The notes under the pieces are model-generated. The model was not told the DNA's origin. It saw only the letters and a program-made list of their open reading frames with translations, and ran no database searches. From contig CASFVA010000066.1 in NCBI GenBank assembly GCA_949298075.1, positions 1 to 64,000 of the forward strand: a stretch of DNA of 64,000 nt. The letters run 5' to 3'. Shown in pieces: positions 25,397 to 33,866 of the stretch. Source of the DNA: an uncultured Lentisphaeria bacterium (GTDB taxonomy: Bacteria > Verrucomicrobiota > Lentisphaeria > Victivallales > Victivallaceae). A program made the translations under genes and the position numbers. Numbering within the stretch: position 1 is the stretch's first letter; every line of letters starts with the position of its first letter.

Positions 25397-25466
25397 CCGC
25401 CCCGGAGCATTCCGGGAAGTACGGCTCACCGACTGCCGAAACTGATTTGCTTGGAGGATTTTGACA

Positions 25467-26999
25467 ATGCGCAGTTCCAGACGCGCCAAACCGCGGATTC
25501 TGATCGTCACGCCGGAAATCACCTATCTGCCGGACGGCATGGGCAACATGGCCAACCAGTTGCACGCCAAGGCCGGCGGCCTGGCGGACGTGTCCGCTTC
25601 GCTGGTCGGCGCGCTGTTCCATCACGGCGCCGACGTACACGTCGCCCTGCCGCATTACCGCAAAATGTTTCACGTCGACGTCGGCAAACTCATCAGCGAC
25701 GAACTGCGCGTCTACATGAACCACCTCAGCAACAGCCGGATTCATCTGGCCGAGGACCGTATTTTCTATTACCGCGATTCGGTTTACAGCAATTATTCCG
25801 AGGACAGTTTCCGGCAGGCCATGGCGTTCCAGCGCGAGGTCATCAACAATATCATTCCATCGGTCAAGCCCGATCTGATCCACTGCAACGACTGGATGAC
25901 CGGACTGATCCCGGCGGCGGCCCGCCGCATGGGTATTCCCTGTTTGTTCACGGTTCATAACATCCACACTCAGAAAGCCACGCTGGAAGCGATCGAGGAC
26001 CGCGGAATCGACGCCGCCCCCTTCTGGCAGAACCTCTATTTTGAACGTCCGCCGATCAACTACGAAGAGACCCGCTCCACCAATCCGGTCGACATGCTGG
26101 CCAGCGGCATTTTCGCAGCGCATTTCATCAACACGGTAAGCCCGACTTTTCTCCGGGAAATCGTCGAGGGCAGACACAGCTTCATTCCCGACAACATCCA
26201 CCGCGAAATTGCGGCCAAATACTACGCCGGCTGTGCCCGCGGCATTCTGAACTCCCCCGATGAGGAGTGCACACCGGAGCGGGATCCGGCGCTGGCCGTC
26301 AATTACGACGCCGCCACCCACGCCACCGCCAAGAAGGTGAACAAGATCGCCTTCCAGAGCCGCACCGGACTGCGGGTGGATCAGAATGCGCCGCTCTTCT
26401 TCTGGCCCAACCGGCTCGATCCGGTGCAGAAAGGCTGCCAGCTGCTGGCGGAAAAAACCTATGACATCATCCACAAATACTACCAGCAGGGGCTGCAGAT
26501 TGCGATTGTCGCCAACGGCAGTTACCAGGAGGTGTTCCGCAATATCGTGCGGTTCCACGATTTCTACGACCGCATGCTGGTCTGCGACTTCGACGAGAAT
26601 CTTTCGCACCTGGCCTTCGCGGCCTCCGACTTTGTGATGGTGCCGTCGCTGTTCGAACCCTGCGGACTGCCGCAGATGACCAGTCAGTATTACGGCAGCC
26701 TGCCGGTGGTTCACGATACCGGCGGACTTCACGACACTGTCGAGAACATTTCCGAGGATGGCTCAACCGGCAGCGGTTTCTGTTTCCGCGACTACGACGC
26801 CAATGCGTTCATGTGGGGCATTGACCAGGCGATGAAATTCTACAACCGTCCGGAAGAGTTCCGCGACCGGGTGGTGGCCCGGGTCATGACCGAGGCCAAA
26901 CAGCGTTTCAATCACGATGTGACGGCCCAGGCCTACATTGACATTTACGAATCGATGCTGGAGCGTCCGCTGGTCAATCCGGTCTGCCACAACCTTTGA
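25467..26999 (+). CDS. glgA: Glycogen synthase
   Basis: Extends glycogen from nucleotide-glucose (GT5 family). The 510-residue protein has the substrate-binding AKAGGLADVSASL near residue 30, after an insertion of about ten residues (DGMGNMANQL) relative to the Escherichia coli enzyme. HCNDWMTGLIP, FTVHNIHTQ and the C-terminal SLFEPCGLPQM with GGLHDTVE are also present. ATG 25467 has GGAGG 9 nt upstream; the TTG six bases earlier is too close to it. No glgC is seen in the window, so the glucose donor supply must be encoded elsewhere. Confidence 0.95.
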   Translation: MRSSRRAKPRILIVTPEITYLPDGMGNMANQLHAKAGGLADVSASLVGALFHHGADVHVALPHYRKMFHVDVGKLISDELRVYMNHLSNSRIHLAEDRIFYYRDSVYSNYSEDSFRQAMAFQREVINNIIPSVKPDLIHCNDWMTGLIPAAARRMGIPCLFTVHNIHTQKATLEAIEDRGIDAAPFWQNLYFERPPINYEETRSTNPVDMLASGIFAAHFINTVSPTFLREIVEGRHSFIPDNIHREIAAKYYAGCARGILNSPDEECTPERDPALAVNYDAATHATAKKVNKIAFQSRTGLRVDQNAPLFFWPNRLDPVQKGCQLLAEKTYDIIHKYYQQGLQIAIVANGSYQEVFRNIVRFHDFYDRMLVCDFDENLSHLAFAASDFVMVPSLFEPCGLPQMTSQYYGSLPVVHDTGGLHDTVENISEDGSTGSGFCFRDYDANAFMWGIDQAMKFYNRPEEFRDRVVARVMTEAKQRFNHDVTAQAYIDIYESMLERPLVNPVCHNL

Positions 27000-27021
27000 A
27001 CGGATCCGGAGCCTGACGGAA

Positions 27022-29022
27022 ATGAGCGCAGTCCTCTACACCCGACGACCCAACCTGCCCGAACCGCTGGGGGGTGATCCCTGGCTGGCGCCTTATCTTG
27101 CGGAACTGGCGGCCCGCCAGCGGCGGGTCGAGGCGATGGAAAGCCGGTTGACGTCCGGGCCGGCCCGGACTTTGGCCGACTTTGCATCGGCGCATGAATT
27201 TTTCGGACTGCACCGCACCGCCGACGGCTGGGTGTTCCGGGAATGGGCGCCGGCCGCCACCGGGATCGTCCTGATCGGGGATTTTTCCGACTGGAAACCG
27301 GAACGCCGTTTCCGGCTCCGGAAGATCGGCAACGGGGCCTGGGAGCTCCGCCTGGCGCCGGAAGTGCTCCGTCCTGGCATGCATTATCTGATCCAGGTGA
27401 GCTGGCCGGGCGGCGGCGGCAACCGGGTGCCGGTTTACGCCCGGATCGTCGATCAGGATGAGCGAACGAAACTCTTCAGCGCAGTGGTGCCTCCGGAGGG
27501 GGGATACCGTTTCATTCATCCGAGTCCGGCGCGTCCGGAGGCGCCGCTGATCTACGAGGCCCACATCGGCATGGCGCAGGAGGAGCCGAAGGTCGGAACC
27601 TTCAACGAATTCCGAGCACGGATTCTGCCGCGGATCGCTGCGTCCGGCTATAATACTCTGCAGTTGATGGCGATCATGGGGCATCCCTATTACGGCAGTT
27701 TCGGCTATCACGTCGCCAATTTTTTCGCGGTGTCCTCACGCTTCGGGACTCCGGACGAATTCAAGGAGCTGGTGGATGAGGCGCACCGGCTCGGCCTGCG
27801 GGTCATCATTGACCTGATTCATTCGCACGCAGTCAAAAACGAGGTGGAGGGTCCGGCCCGGATCGACGGCACCCGTTACGCCTATTTCCATGACGGGGAA
27901 CGCGGTCTGCACTCCGGCTGGGATTCGCTCTGCTTTGATTACGGCAAGATCGAAGTGCTGCATTTTCTGCTTTCCAACTGCCGTTACTGGCTGGACGAGT
28001 TTCATCTGGACGGCTTCCGGTTTGACGGCGTGACCAGCATGCTTTATCTGCATCACGGCCTCAACCGGGTATTTTCCGGTTACGATGACTATTTCAGCGA
28101 AGCGGTGGATAACGACGCCGTCACCTATCTGAGTCTGGCCAATCGCCTGATCCACACCCTGCGGCCCGACGCGGTCACGATCGCCGAGGACGTCAGCGGC
28201 ATGCCGGGGCTGGCCGCCGCCGACGGCATCGGATTTGACTACCGGCTGGCGATGGGGGTGTCGGACATGTGGTTCAAGCTGTTCGACCTGCCGGACGAAA
28301 GCTGGAACATGTTCTATCTGTACGGGGAATTGATCAACCGCCGCCGGGACGAGCGTTCCATAAGCTATGTTGAGTGCCACGATCAGGCCATCGTCGGCGG
28401 CAAGACCGCCATGTTCACCCTGGCTGACGCGGCGATGTACGACGCCATGGATATATACTCCGGCAATCCGGCAATCGACCGGGCAATGGCGCTGCACAAG
28501 ATGATCCGGCTGGCGACGGCGGCGACGGCCGGGAACGGTTACCTGAACTTCATGGGCAACGAGTTCGGACATCCGGAATGGATCGACTTTCCGCGGGAAG
28601 GCAACCACTGGTCGCTGTGGCACGCCCGACGGCAGTGGTCGCTGGCTGAGGCGCCCGGACTGCGTTACCGCTTCCTGAATCAGTTCGACCGGGCCATGAT
28701 CGAATTGGCGGGCCGGCCGGGTTTCTACCTGGCCGTGCCGCAGACCGTGCGGGTGGACAACGAGAAAAAGGTGTTGATTTTTGAACGTGCCGGCTATTGG
28801 TTCTGCTTTAATTTTCATCCCACCGTCAGCTGCGTGGACTACGAGTTTGAAGTTCCCGAGGGCAGCTTTGAAACGGTGTTGGACAGCGATTCCCCCGATT
28901 TCGGCGGCTTTTCACTGCGCCGTCCCGACCAGCATTATTTCTCACGGCGCCTGAAATCCGGCAGCGTCATCAGCTGTTACCTGCCCTGCCGCACCGCGCT
29001 GGTGCTTCGCAAGACGGACTGA
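27022..29022 (+). CDS. glgB: 1,4-alpha-glucan branching enzyme, eukaryotic-like
   Basis: Makes the alpha-1,6 branches of glycogen (GH13). The 666-residue protein has an N-terminal CBM48 (EFFGLHRTADGWVFREWAP) and the TIM barrel with DGFRFDGVTS (nucleophile Asp), TIAEDVSGMPG (acid Glu) and YVECHDQAIVG (third Asp). From memory it follows animal and fungal GBE1 closely: EAHIGMAQEE, YNTLQLMAIM, YYGSFGYHV, SMLYLHHG, GYLNFMGNEFGHPEW. This marks the eukaryote-like GH13_8 group and not the usual bacterial GlgB. It starts 22 bp after glgA and is the last gene of the operon. Confidence 0.93.
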   Translation: MSAVLYTRRPNLPEPLGGDPWLAPYLAELAARQRRVEAMESRLTSGPARTLADFASAHEFFGLHRTADGWVFREWAPAATGIVLIGDFSDWKPERRFRLRKIGNGAWELRLAPEVLRPGMHYLIQVSWPGGGGNRVPVYARIVDQDERTKLFSAVVPPEGGYRFIHPSPARPEAPLIYEAHIGMAQEEPKVGTFNEFRARILPRIAASGYNTLQLMAIMGHPYYGSFGYHVANFFAVSSRFGTPDEFKELVDEAHRLGLRVIIDLIHSHAVKNEVEGPARIDGTRYAYFHDGERGLHSGWDSLCFDYGKIEVLHFLLSNCRYWLDEFHLDGFRFDGVTSMLYLHHGLNRVFSGYDDYFSEAVDNDAVTYLSLANRLIHTLRPDAVTIAEDVSGMPGLAAADGIGFDYRLAMGVSDMWFKLFDLPDESWNMFYLYGELINRRRDERSISYVECHDQAIVGGKTAMFTLADAAMYDAMDIYSGNPAIDRAMALHKMIRLATAATAGNGYLNFMGNEFGHPEWIDFPREGNHWSLWHARRQWSLAEAPGLRYRFLNQFDRAMIELAGRPGFYLAVPQTVRVDNEKKVLIFERAGYWFCFNFHPTVSCVDYEFEVPEGSFETVLDSDSPDFGGFSLRRPDQHYFSRRLKSGSVISCYLPCRTALVLRKTD

Positions 29023-29093: not shown

Positions 29094-29127
29094 CGGGTCC
29101 GGGGTTCAAATCCTCTCACCCCGACCA
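29094..29127 (+). tRNA. 3' fragment of a tRNA-Pro gene (likely attachment-site remnant)
   Basis: GGGGTTCAAATCCTCTC followed by ACCCCGACCA is a T arm, the 3' acceptor strand, discriminator A and encoded CCA of a tRNA whose acceptor fits tRNA-Pro (CGGGGTG 5' strand expected). No D arm or anticodon arm can be folded upstream. Duplicated tRNA 3' ends are left where integrases insert elements, and AT-richer DNA follows. Confidence 0.65.
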
Positions 29128-29300: not shown

Positions 29301-30425
29301 TCAGTCCGCCAGCCAAAGCCGCCGGTAGCGCATCGCCAGCAGCACCAGCGCCATAACCAGAATCAGGAGGGACAGAATCAGCAGCACGGTGTATTGCCGC
29401 CGGATGAACAATCCGATCCGGCGCAGGAACGAAGCGTGTTCCGCCTCGGGAGCAAATCCGGCCTGGAAAGCCTTGATGTCGGCGCGCAGTTCATCGACGC
29501 TGCGGTACCGTTCAACCGGATTGAACGCCATCGCCTTGAGACAGATCGCCTCCAGTGCCGGCGGCACCTTGCGCCATTCGGGAGCCACCCGGGAGGGCGG
29601 CGGCAGGTCGCCCTGGGCGGAACGGGCCAGCACCGCCTTGACCGGCTGCCCGGCGAAGGGGGACTCCAGCGCCAGCATGGCGTAGAGCAATGCGCCCATT
29701 GAATAAATGTCACTGGTTACACCGGGCGGCAGATCGGGATCGCGCCGGATCAGCTCGGGCGCCATGTAGCCCGGAGTTCCCTTCAGCACACCGACGCCGG
29801 CTCCCCGGGCCACTCCGTTGCGGTCGGTTTCACAGGCCAACCCCCAGTCCAGCACCAGCACTTCTCCGAAGCTGCCGAGATTGACGTTGTCAGGCTTGAG
29901 ATCAAGATGGCAGATATGCTGGGAATGAGCAAAGCGTATGGCATTGCAGATGCGCAGATAAATCTGCAGCAGCCGCTCCAGCGGATAAGCCTCCACCGCC
30001 TCGGCGTCCATGCGGCGGATTCGTTTGAGCAGCACCGAAAGCGGAGCTCCGCGCAGGTACTTCATAGTGAAATACGGCGATCCCGAACTGTCCTTGCCGA
30101 TGTCGTGCACCGGAACGATGTTGGGGTGTTCCAGCCGGGCGGTGATCCTGGCCTCGCGGACAAAGCGCTCCAGGTCGGCCCGCGGCCGCTCCCGGAAATC
30201 CGGCATGATGGCCATGGCGATGTCACGGCCGGTGTCCTGGTCGCGAACCAGCAGCACCCCCTTCATGCCTCCGAACCCGATACTGCGGATAAACTTGTAA
30301 CGGGTCTGAGGTTTGACCGGCAGCGAATCAAAACCCGCCGAATTCTCCGGTTCCCCGGTGCCGGAATCAACGGAAATGATCCGGGTTTTATCCCCGACCG
30401 CGGCGGCGGCATTCACTCTGTTCAT
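29301..30425 (-). CDS. Ser/Thr protein kinase-like membrane protein without the beta3 lysine
   Basis: A 374-residue protein: kinase domain (about residues 43-310) and a C-terminal membrane helix ([18 protein letters not shown]), with the kinase on the cytoplasmic side. Catalytic-loop residues are present as HLDLKPDN (Asp175, Lys177, Asn180) and DWG (Asp193), followed by GTPGYMAPE. The VAxK motif reads IAMA, so Ala72 replaces the ATP-anchoring lysine. Lys55 sits at the third glycine position of the glycine loop (GFGGMKGV), the place used by WNK kinases. It could therefore be active by the WNK solution; a pseudokinase is the alternative. ATG 30425 overlaps the clpX stop by 4 nt, so translation is coupled to clpX. 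Confidence 0.85.
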
Positions 30426-31699
30426 TTGAGTTCGGCTTTGGCTTTCCCGAGCACCACGTCAGCGGTGATTACACACCGGCTGCCCCGGCGGGAAGGAGCT
30501 TCGAACATCACATCAAGCATCAGATTTTCCAAAATCGCCCGCAAACCGCGCGCTCCGGTGCCCCGGGCGGCGGCGCGATCGGCGATCGCCTCCAACGCCT
30601 CGCGAGTGAATTCCAGCTTGACGCCTTCCATGGCCAGCAGCGCCTGATACTGCTTGATCTGAGCATTGCGGGGCTCACTCATGACCCGGATCAGGTCGTC
30701 CCGCTCCAGCGGCCGCAAAGCGGTCAGCACCGGCAGCCGGCCGACCAGCTCCGGAATCAATCCGAAATGAATGAGATCCTCGGGTTCGCAATACTCGAAG
30801 GGATTTTTCGCCAGCGACTCGGACTCACGATCCGAGAGTTCTCCGGAGCCATCCACCAGCCGCTTGAAGCCCAGCACCTGCCGGCCGCACCGCCGCTGGA
30901 TGATTTTATCCAGTCCGACGAAGGCGCCGCCGCAGATGAAGAGGATATTTGAAGTGTCGATGTGCAGAAATTCCTGCTGAGGGTGCTTGCGACCGCCCTG
31001 AGGAGGCACATTGGCCACAGTTCCTTCCAGGATCTTCAGCAGCGCCTGCTGCACCCCTTCGCCGGAAACATCCCGGGTGATCGAGACATTTTCACTTTTG
31101 CGGGCGATCTTGTCGATTTCGTCGATGTAGATGATGCCGATCTGGGCGCGTTCCAAATTGCCGTCGGCGGCCTGATAAAGCCGGAGCAGAATGTTTTCGA
31201 CATCCTCGCCGACGTAGCCGGCCTCGGTCAGCGTGGTGGCGTCGGAAATCGCCAGCGGAACATCGAGCAGTTTGGCCAGAGTCCGGGCGAGCAGGGTCTT
31301 GCCGCTGCCGGTGGGACCGATGAGCAGTACGTTGCTTTTATCCAGCTCCACAGCCTCACCGTCCGACTCCTTGCCCCCGCCGAGGGTCTGAATCCGGCGA
31401 TAGTGATTATGCACCGCCACCGCCAGGACTTTTTTGGCCTGCTCCTGACCGATCACATAGCGGTCGAGTTCACTTTTGATGGCCGCCGGATCCGGGACTT
31501 TCAACCGGGCGACCGCATCAGCTTTGGAATCTGATTTTTCACGGGCTGCGGCCTCCCGAACCACTTCGCCGGCCTTCTCCAGACAGCCCGAACAAATGCC
31601 GACGCCCTCAAACATGCTCGGCAGAAACAATTCACCGGAAGCCTCTTCCGGAGTTCTTCCGCAGAATCCGCAGGTAATTTTATTGCGTTTGTTAGCCAT
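30422..31699 (-). CDS. clpX: ClpX, ATP-dependent Clp protease ATPase subunit
   Basis: AAA+ unfoldase that feeds proteins to ClpP. The 425-residue protein has the N-terminal Cys4 zinc-binding domain ([12 protein letters not shown]), Walker A GPTGSGKT, the pore loop GYVGEDVE, Walker [11 protein letters not shown], and [11 protein letters not shown] (sensor region). An ATG at 31729 is possible, but ATG 31699 (MANKRNK) gives the normal N-terminus, with GGGA upstream. It follows clpP by 26 bp, in the classical order tig-clpP-clpX. Confidence 0.97.
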
Positions 31700-31725
31700 T
31701 TTCCCTGACCAGTGCGCGGGGAGCC

Positions 31726-32331
31726 TCAACTCCGGACCGCGTTTTTGCTGACCACCTGATCGACGAGGTGGTATTTAACCGCCTCTTCGGCGCTCATGAA
31801 GAAGTCGCGCTCAGTGTCTTTTTCGATTTTCCGGATCGACTGCCGACAGTGCCGGGCCAGGATACCGTTGAGCATTGCCTTGAGCCGGAGAATCTCCCGC
31901 ACCTGGATGTCCATATCGGCGGCGGTGCCTTCGCTGCCGCCCCAGGGCTGGTGAATCATAATCCGGCTGTTGGGCAGCGCAAACCGCTTGCCCTCGGCTC
32001 CGGCGGCGAGCAGCACCGCCCCCATGGAAGCACACTGACCGACGCAATAGGTTTTGACGTCGCACGACAGCACCTGCATGGTGTCATAAATGGCCAGCCC
32101 GGCGGTAACCGATCCGCCTGGACTGTTGATGTAAAGATCAATATCCTTTTTGGGATCCTCGGACTGCAGGAAGAGCAGCTGGGCGACAATCAGAGAGGCG
32201 ACGCTGTCGTCAATCGGTGTACTGAGCATGATGATGCGCTCTTTGAGCAGCCGGCTGAAAATGTCGAACGAACGCTCGCCCTGACCGGTTTGTTCTATCA
32301 CCATCGGAACCAGATAAGAATTGCTCTTCAT
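31726..32331 (-). CDS. clpP: ClpP, ATP-dependent Clp protease proteolytic subunit
   Basis: Serine protease subunit that forms the tetradecameric chamber. The 201-residue protein has the N-terminal [16 protein letters not shown], the hydrophobic [12 protein letters not shown] cleft, and the catalytic triad Ser102 (GQCASMG), His127 (MIHQPWGG) and Asp176 (KDTERDFF). Length and motif spacing match Escherichia coli ClpP, with each catalytic residue shifted by 5. It lies between tig and clpX in the same direction; no promoter was found directly upstream. Confidence 0.98.
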
Positions 32332-32555: not shown

Positions 32556-33866
32556 TTACGCTTCAAGCGCGGCAGCCACCAGCTTGTCAATGACCTTGGC
32601 GTTGGCCATATCAAGCTTAAGCTCTTCCATGGCTCCGTTCTTTTCCATGATTTCGCGCAGCTGCTTGGTCGTGCAGCCGTAATGCCGGCTCATGCTGTTC
32701 ATCTGAGCCTCGAGCTCGCCGGATTCGACGGCGATCTTCTCCAGCCGGGCGATCTTGCGCAGCACCAGGGTGCGGCGCAGTTTGGCCGCCGCGGCGGTCT
32801 CGGCGGTCTTGCGGTGCTCATCCAGCCCGGCCTTGAACTTCTCGGCATCCTCCTCGCTCTTGACCGTTTCGCGGGCCATGCGCTGCAGCTCGGACTGGAT
32901 CTCAGACTCCAGCAGCGGCTTGGGCAGTTCGAAATCCCCGGCGGTCTCCAGCAGGCGCTTGCAGACCGCCTCGCCGGCGGCCTCGCGCCGGCGCGCCGCA
33001 TGTTCCATCTCGCAGGACTGACGGATGGTCTGCCTGAAAGCCTCGATGGACTCGGCGCCTGACTTCGCAACCAGTTCCTCATCCGAGAGTTTGGCCCGCC
33101 GCTGGATCGCCGCCACCTTGACTGTGTAGTTGACGGTCTTGCCGGCCAGCGCGGCCTCGCGGTAGTCGGCGGGATAAGCTGCGGCGAAATGATATTCTCC
33201 GCCCTTTTCAGCGCCGGTGAGCGCGGCGATCACGCCGGGGATCATTTCCGGCTCGCTCAGCCAGATGAAGGTATCCTCGGCGGTGACCTGACGGCGCAGC
33301 ACGGCCGAAGCGCCTTCCGGAAGCTCAAAGTCGCTGGTATAGCTGACCTTGAGCATATCGTCGGCCTGGGCGGGACCGTCGACTTCGGCATAGCCGCCGT
33401 ACATCGAGCGGAACATGTCGAGCCGTTTTTCGATTTCCTCGTCAGTCACGGCGTCGAGCGGAACATCCACCTTGATGTGATTGTAGTCGCCAACTTCGAT
33501 TTCGGGGGCGACGGTAAGCTCAAAGGTGAATTTGAACTCCTCGCCGGTTTTGAATTCCGGCAGTTCCTTGAAATTGGCATTGAGCAGATCGATGGACTCA
33601 TCCCGGCTGATTTTGTCGAAAGCGGCCGCAAAGAAGCGGTTGCGCAGTTCCTCGTCGATTTCGGCGGCATACTTGGAGCGGATCAGCGCCGCCGGAGCCC
33701 GTCCGGGCCGGAAGCCGGGCAGCTGGGCGACTCCGCCGATATAATTGAGAACTCTGGCGGTCTCAGCCTTCACCGTCTCCTGGGGGACAGTGAAAGCAAC
33801 TTCAAGACTGCAGGGCTGGGCATTCTGCTTTTCCATCACAATGGACTCTGTCAGATTTTTGGCCAT
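32556..33866 (-). CDS. tig: Trigger factor
   Basis: Ribosome-bound chaperone and prolyl isomerase that meets nascent chains. The 436-residue protein has the N-terminal ribosome-binding domain with the signature GFRPGRAP (Escherichia coli GFRxGK), a central FKBP-like domain (about residues 165-255, SEPEMIPGVIAALTGAEKGG) and a long helical C-terminal domain. A second ATG at residue 11 (MEKQNAQ) is also preceded by plausible upstream sequence. First gene of the clp cluster, with its own promoter and a palindrome on the start point. Confidence 0.93.
   Translation of the reverse strand: MAKNLTESIVMEKQNAQPCSLEVAFTVPQETVKAETARVLNYIGGVAQLPGFRPGRAPAALIRSKYAAEIDEELRNRFFAAAFDKISRDESIDLLNANFKELPEFKTGEEFKFTFELTVAPEIEVGDYNHIKVDVPLDAVTDEEIEKRLDMFRSMYGGYAEVDGPAQADDMLKVSYTSDFELPEGASAVLRRQVTAEDTFIWLSEPEMIPGVIAALTGAEKGGEYHFAAAYPADYREAALAGKTVNYTVKVAAIQRRAKLSDEELVAKSGAESIEAFRQTIRQSCEMEHAARRREAAGEAVCKRLLETAGDFELPKPLLESEIQSELQRMARETVKSEEDAEKFKAGLDEHRKTAETAAAAKLRRTLVLRKIARLEKIAVESGELEAQMNSMSRHYGCTTKQLREIMEKNGAMEELKLDMANAKVIDKLVAAALEA

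Follow-up and report, generated by a model that had tools for sequence, protein, structure and literature searches.

The window, the whole 64,000-nucleotide stretch of DNA analysed here, encodes on its minus strand a protein kinase of 374 amino acids (29301..30425), recognised from its open reading frame, its translation, a Pfam match and an AlphaFold2 model, which bears a lysine in the glycine loop and an alanine at the site of the β3 lysine. The gene stands last in a presumed tig-clpP-clpX-kinase operon. The first gene, tig (32556..33866, minus strand), encodes trigger factor and is preceded by a strong terminator-like hairpin; none comparable was found from tig to the kinase. Next come clpP (31726..32331, minus strand), assigned from its open reading frame and from a clpP-clpX-kinase order that is also seen in relatives, and clpX (30422..31729, minus strand), whose TGA stop codon overlaps the kinase ATG as ATGA (bases 30425-30422 of the minus strand). 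Within the clpX coding sequence, ARAGORN called a tRNA-Leu (caa) at 30810..30899 on the minus strand, a call that is probably false, since Rfam at E 0.1 gives no hit at that place. The two genes that converge on the kinase (25461..29022, plus strand) resemble, from their translations, those for glycogen synthase and branching enzyme, glgA and glgB. Between glgB and the kinase, at about 29098..29127 on the plus strand, GGGGTTCAAATCCTCTCACCCCGACCA followed by a run of T resembles a tRNA 3′ end with its CCA. Neither ARAGORN nor Rfam called a tRNA at this place, and the element is possibly a tRNA remnant or an attachment site.

The kinase belongs to Pfam family PF00069: it matches the profile with an E-value of 4.5e-35 and 121.8 bits against a cut-off of 31.7, adopts the bilobal fold and retains E91, D175, K177, N180 and D193. 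Modelling of the structure by AlphaFold2, which the initial annotation had proposed as a check, gave a complete kinase fold with a mean pLDDT of 89. The nearest solved fold is that of PknB (1mru), with a Z score of 31.4, 35% identity and an rmsd of 1.9 over 262 residues, and PknB is also the closest solved protein by sequence. The protein resembles PknB-type Hanks kinases in its fold, its motifs and its C-terminal transmembrane helix; PknB, however, has a lysine in β3 and a serine in the loop, where the present protein and the clade described below have alanine and lysine.

The glycine loop reads GFGGMKGV (G50, F51, G52, G53, M54, K55), with Lys55 (codon AAG, 30261..30263, minus strand) at the third-glycine position and, in the model, at the start of strand β2. 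Strand β3 reads IAMA (I69, A70, M71, A72), and Ala72 (codon GCC, 30210..30212, minus strand) occupies the site of the VAxK lysine that is canonical for Hanks-type kinases. In helix C, residue Glu91 (30153..30155, minus strand) is the presumed salt-bridge partner of Lys55. The catalytic loop (29886..29909, minus strand) runs H173-L174-D175-L176-K177-P178-D179-N180, with HLD in place of HRD, and the metal-binding motif D193-W194-G195 (29841..29849, minus strand) has DWG in place of DFG. Read directly from the translation, the two substitutions reported in the initial annotation, and the positions it gave for Lys55, Ala72, Asp175, Lys177, Asn180 and Asp193, are all correct; its account leaves out Leu174 at the HRD arginine and the DWG reading. 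Its proposal that the protein is membrane-anchored is borne out by hydropathy (Kyte-Doolittle peak 3.15, in a stretch at about residues 346-364) and by a helix in the model (residues 345-373), which place a C-terminal transmembrane segment at about residues 346-366 (29328..29390, minus strand). Only 8 residues follow the transmembrane helix, and the protein has no PASTA domain. The window's own genome yielded four other kinases, all with the β3 lysine and none with a loop lysine.

Exchange of the glycine-loop and β3 lysines

Homologues came from protein-similarity searches of 60 related genomes, from fetched regions, from DNA patterns run against 145 genomes of the phylum and against named genomes, and from searches that started from a sister kinase. 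Of the 145 kinase domains of the phylum that were aligned, 89 combine a loop lysine with a β3 alanine (hereafter Lys/Ala kinases), and 56 combine a β3 lysine with glycine, alanine, serine or threonine in the loop; not one of the 145 has both lysines or neither. The initial annotation had asked whether loss of the β3 lysine always accompanies gain of a loop lysine, and had held that homologues lacking both would mark the protein as a pseudokinase. The exchange is exact, and homologues lacking both lysines, sought by alignment and by DNA pattern, were not found. Because part of the alignment set had been found by the motif itself, the subset drawn by protein similarity was counted separately; it holds 48 Lys55/Ala72 domains and 53 with the β3 lysine, again with no exception. 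At the DNA level, the pattern GGMK(14)AMA occurs 39 times in the 145 genomes of the phylum and never when read backwards. The pattern with both lysines (GGMK..xAxK) is absent from these genomes, that with neither (GGMG..AMA) occurs twice in them, neither time in a kinase-like sequence, and the positive control (GGMG..xAxK) gave 50 occurrences in 29 genomes. From the scan of named genomes, the Lys/Ala kinases among the matches listed come from Lentisphaerota, Kiritimatiellota and Verrucomicrobiota, and at least 102 matches, many of them from Rhodobacteraceae, are not kinases. One clade member, L172, sits in a record labelled Akkermansia muciniphila; this is an assembled-genome name, and the record may be mislabelled or the contig misbinned.

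A careful tree was built from 64 domains after removal of columns 54, 55, 70-72 and 173-175. Without these trait columns, the Lys/Ala kinases form one clade, supported at 99/91 and recovered in every bootstrap tree (100%), and the window kinase, itself with the loop lysine and the β3 alanine, is placed inside it. The nearest relatives of the clade are GGMG..VAMK kinases of the ordinary type, from the same phylum. The nearest of these, L213, L215, L216, L276 and L278, have HRD and would serve well as controls in experiments that return the lysine to β3. In a quick tree, the ordinary kinase L213 had fallen within the Lys/Ala clade, a placement that was removed by adding nearest relatives and by a careful search.

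Since the Lys/Ala kinases are monophyletic and their closest ordinary relatives belong to the same phylum, the change from Gly55/Lys72 to Lys55/Ala72 was probably a single event, one that would predate the split between the Lentisphaeria and Kiritimatiellales members or would have been followed by later transfer between them. The switch would have arisen in one of the phylum's ordinary PknB-like lineages and been retained since; among the sequences examined, there is no reversal. As the outcome of one event, the perfect correlation would represent one change kept by descent and not many changes, and we take its weight to come from conservation rather than from repeated change.

Relationship to WNK kinases

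In 2007, WNK was termed the sole functional family of eukaryotic-type kinases without the β3 lysine, Lys72 (PMC1821047). Catalysis by WNK needs the loop lysine, which contacts ATP in the manner of Lys72 in PKA (PMC1821047; PMC4718504). A comparable displacement, with the positive charge now at position 55 instead of 72, has been proposed for the CAK-chloro kinase-like family (PMC1821047). That family has Arg55 with Met72 and has lost Glu91, whereas Glu91 is invariant in the Lys/Ala clade.

The kinase domain of WNK1, checked against the Protein Data Bank, aligns with the window kinase without a gap from the loop to β3. The alignment pairs Lys233 with Lys55 and Cys250 with Ala72, at 27% identity over 275 columns, and thereby upholds the claim of the initial annotation that the loop lysine occupies the same position as in WNK. 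The likeness extends to loss of the β3 lysine and to retention of the helix-C glutamate, the catalytic aspartate, the asparagine and the DFG aspartate. In contrast, WNK1 has the HRD arginine and DLG, where the window kinase has HLD and DWG and the clade as a whole HLD or HFD with DWG. The β3 residue is cysteine in WNK1 and alanine in the clade, and the clade kinases are bacterial, membrane-tethered and far closer to PknB in both sequence and fold. Given the lost HRD arginine, the DWG motif and a fold nearest to PknB, the window kinase would not be an orthologue of WNK.

The lysine position and spacing are nonetheless identical to those of WNK1, as would be expected if the Lys/Ala family went back to a WNK kinase gained from eukaryotes and owed its lysine to no independent change. 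When WNK1 and PknB were added to the tree, WNK1 fell outside the Lys/Ala clade (94/92) on a very long branch; an AU test of joining WNK1 to the clade gave p = 0.17, which does not reject the grouping. WNK is absent among the best 60 sequence matches of the kinase, and also among the Foldseek and VIA-align matches listed, a scope that leaves room for a likeness. The closest solved sequences and folds are those of PknB, and the HRD and DLG of WNK1 are absent from the clade, whose nearest relatives are, as stated above, ordinary GGMG..VAMK kinases of the same phylum. We regard descent from a eukaryotic WNK as extremely improbable. Because the AU test does not reject joining, an independent, convergent origin of the WNK-like lysine is favoured, but not proven.

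Trp194 is invariant at the column of the DLG leucine of WNK1, a residue that presumably lines the chloride site. Since tryptophan replaces this leucine, chloride binding of the WNK kind is not expected in the clade kinases.

Catalytic residues and the case for activity

Beyond the two exchanged positions, most of the active site is fixed across the clade. Residues D175, N180, D193, W194, G195, E91, H173, G52, A70 and A72 are invariant in the 88 other members, Lys55 is present in 89 of 89, and Lys177 is kept in 87 of the 88, the exception being a single K177T. Residue 174, at the position of the HRD arginine, is leucine, phenylalanine or tyrosine in 88 of 88. The columns that best separate Lys/Ala from ordinary kinases are 72, 55 and 174, and after them Pro117. 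Whether the HRD arginine is always lost together with the lysine exchange was considered, and such a rule was rejected: L290, an ordinary kinase, has HLD alongside an intact β3 lysine, so this loss does not need the lysine shift. Conservation of the motif in tens of relatives rules out a mis-called reading frame or a chance motif, and the invariance of the catalytic residues likewise rules out a decaying gene. Elsewhere in the collection, two kinase-like sequences of genome G039, L226 and L244, have degraded catalytic loops (NLNIEPSN and NLDLNTSS) and degraded metal motifs; they keep the β3 lysine and are probably true pseudokinases.

We consider the window protein to be quite probably an active Hanks-type Ser/Thr kinase that uses Lys55 in place of the β3 lysine. 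From the third-glycine position, Lys55 would take over the job of the missing residue, contacting the phosphates of ATP and pairing with helix-C Glu91, as expected from WNK1 Lys233. Since the remaining catalytic machinery is kept, transfer of phosphate to proteins would be the most likely activity. Retention of all the catalytic residues across the Lys/Ala family argues for phosphotransfer. Binding of ATP, without any phosphotransfer, may also be enough to keep motifs invariant. The lost HRD arginine and the DWG motif set the Lys/Ala kinases apart from WNK, and we count these differences against an active kinase.

The same residues could belong to an ATP-binding pseudokinase, in which Lys55 restores nucleotide binding and the protein transfers no phosphate but works as a scaffold or switch that depends on ATP. 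The β3 lysine is absent and the HRD arginine lost in every member of the clade, and a recent review takes loss of the β3 lysine as grounds for the pseudokinase label unless activity is shown (PMC12599244). That review surveys seven bacterial pseudokinase families, ActPs1-3, GLW, CP1, DYD and DLHK, some of which are proposed to bind ATP by another route (PMC12599244). Like the Lys/Ala kinases, these are bacterial Hanks-type domains without the normal β3 lysine; a loop lysine, by contrast, is reported for none of the seven, and the majority, as described, have lost additional motifs or carry arginine in place of the lysine (PMC12599244). With its β3 alanine, its HLD with an intact aspartate and its DWG, the window kinase fits the motifs of none of the seven families, as judged by the motif wording of the review (GLW, DYD, β3 arginine, HRD aspartate changed to asparagine, and others) and not by family profiles. 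Asp175, Lys177, Asn180 and Asp193 are kept in essentially all clade members, which span several classes, and this retention speaks against a scaffold because a non-catalytic scaffold would not need them. A pseudokinase therefore seems to us distinctly unlikely.

Verrucomicrobia, Lentisphaerae and Planctomycetes are not mentioned in the review (PMC12599244), and a search of the open-access literature for WNK-like bacterial kinases, or for kinases of these phyla, yielded no relevant report. The Lys/Ala clade is apparently a variant of Hanks-type kinases that has not been described so far.

Linkage to clpX and its implications

In 44 genomes of the window's family, at the loci that were read, the gene immediately downstream of clpX, on its strand, is the kinase. 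Outside this count, the arrangement recurs in three named records, L112, L160 and L201, from Lentisphaeria or Victivallales; four more named records that show it are probably copies of genomes already counted. Where flanks were read, the full tig-clpP-clpX-kinase order is kept in L116, L121, L175, L177, L112, L160 and L201. The spacing between clpX and the kinase, measured with the start codon nearest the clpX stop, ranges from a 41-base overlap to a 118-base gap, and throughout much of the genus to which the window belongs the two genes overlap. The clpX-adjacent kinases, which range down to about 50% identity, form one clade of tail-anchored proteins, with open frames of 363-461 amino acids where complete. 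Clade members without this linkage are mostly long, with open frames of up to 1174 amino acids and, in several, LRR or TPR repeats past the transmembrane helix; the exceptions are one 368-residue protein and loci cut near the gene. No kinase stands behind clpX in genome G035 (L295) of the same family, where other genes follow, or in three genomes from a different family within the order. The link to clpX put forward in the initial annotation is thus supported by the ATGA overlap and by its conservation in 44 genomes, but it is confined to the short tail-anchored branch and does not extend to the whole family.

The conserved adjacency makes co-expression of the kinase with ClpXP likely in this branch, whose product would be a short membrane-tethered kinase, with no domain past the transmembrane helix, encoded together with ClpXP. 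An addition to the active-kinase explanation, and not exclusive with it, is that the branch is a dedicated regulator of ClpXP that works at the membrane and phosphorylates ClpX or ClpP themselves, an adaptor or a substrate. The number of genomes with the kinase behind clpX, often with overlaps of 1 to 41 bases, the grouping of the linked kinases in one clade and the four-gene order where flanks were read all point this way. Gene order may, however, persist without common function; G035 and the three genomes of the other family have clpX with no adjoining kinase, and most other Lys/Ala clade members are not near clpX. A search for a Hanks-type kinase coupled to ClpX in the open-access literature found none. 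We hold a dedicated regulator as a tentative possibility, and ClpXP as the target of the clpX-linked kinase is speculative.

In its fullest form, the proposal would be that a large and ancient clade of active bacterial Ser/Thr kinases reached the WNK solution independently, and that one branch of it, incorporated in the tig-clpP-clpX operon, is a membrane-tethered kinase acting on ClpXP or its substrates; we think it rather doubtful that all of this holds. The relocated lysine is fixed over tens of genera that have ordinary sister kinases, which makes movement of the lysine testable by a two-residue swap. If the Lys/Ala kinases are active, the practice of annotating kinases without a β3 lysine as dead may err for a whole bacterial family, and the kinases encoded beside clpX would offer a candidate connection from Ser/Thr phosphorylation to regulated proteolysis.
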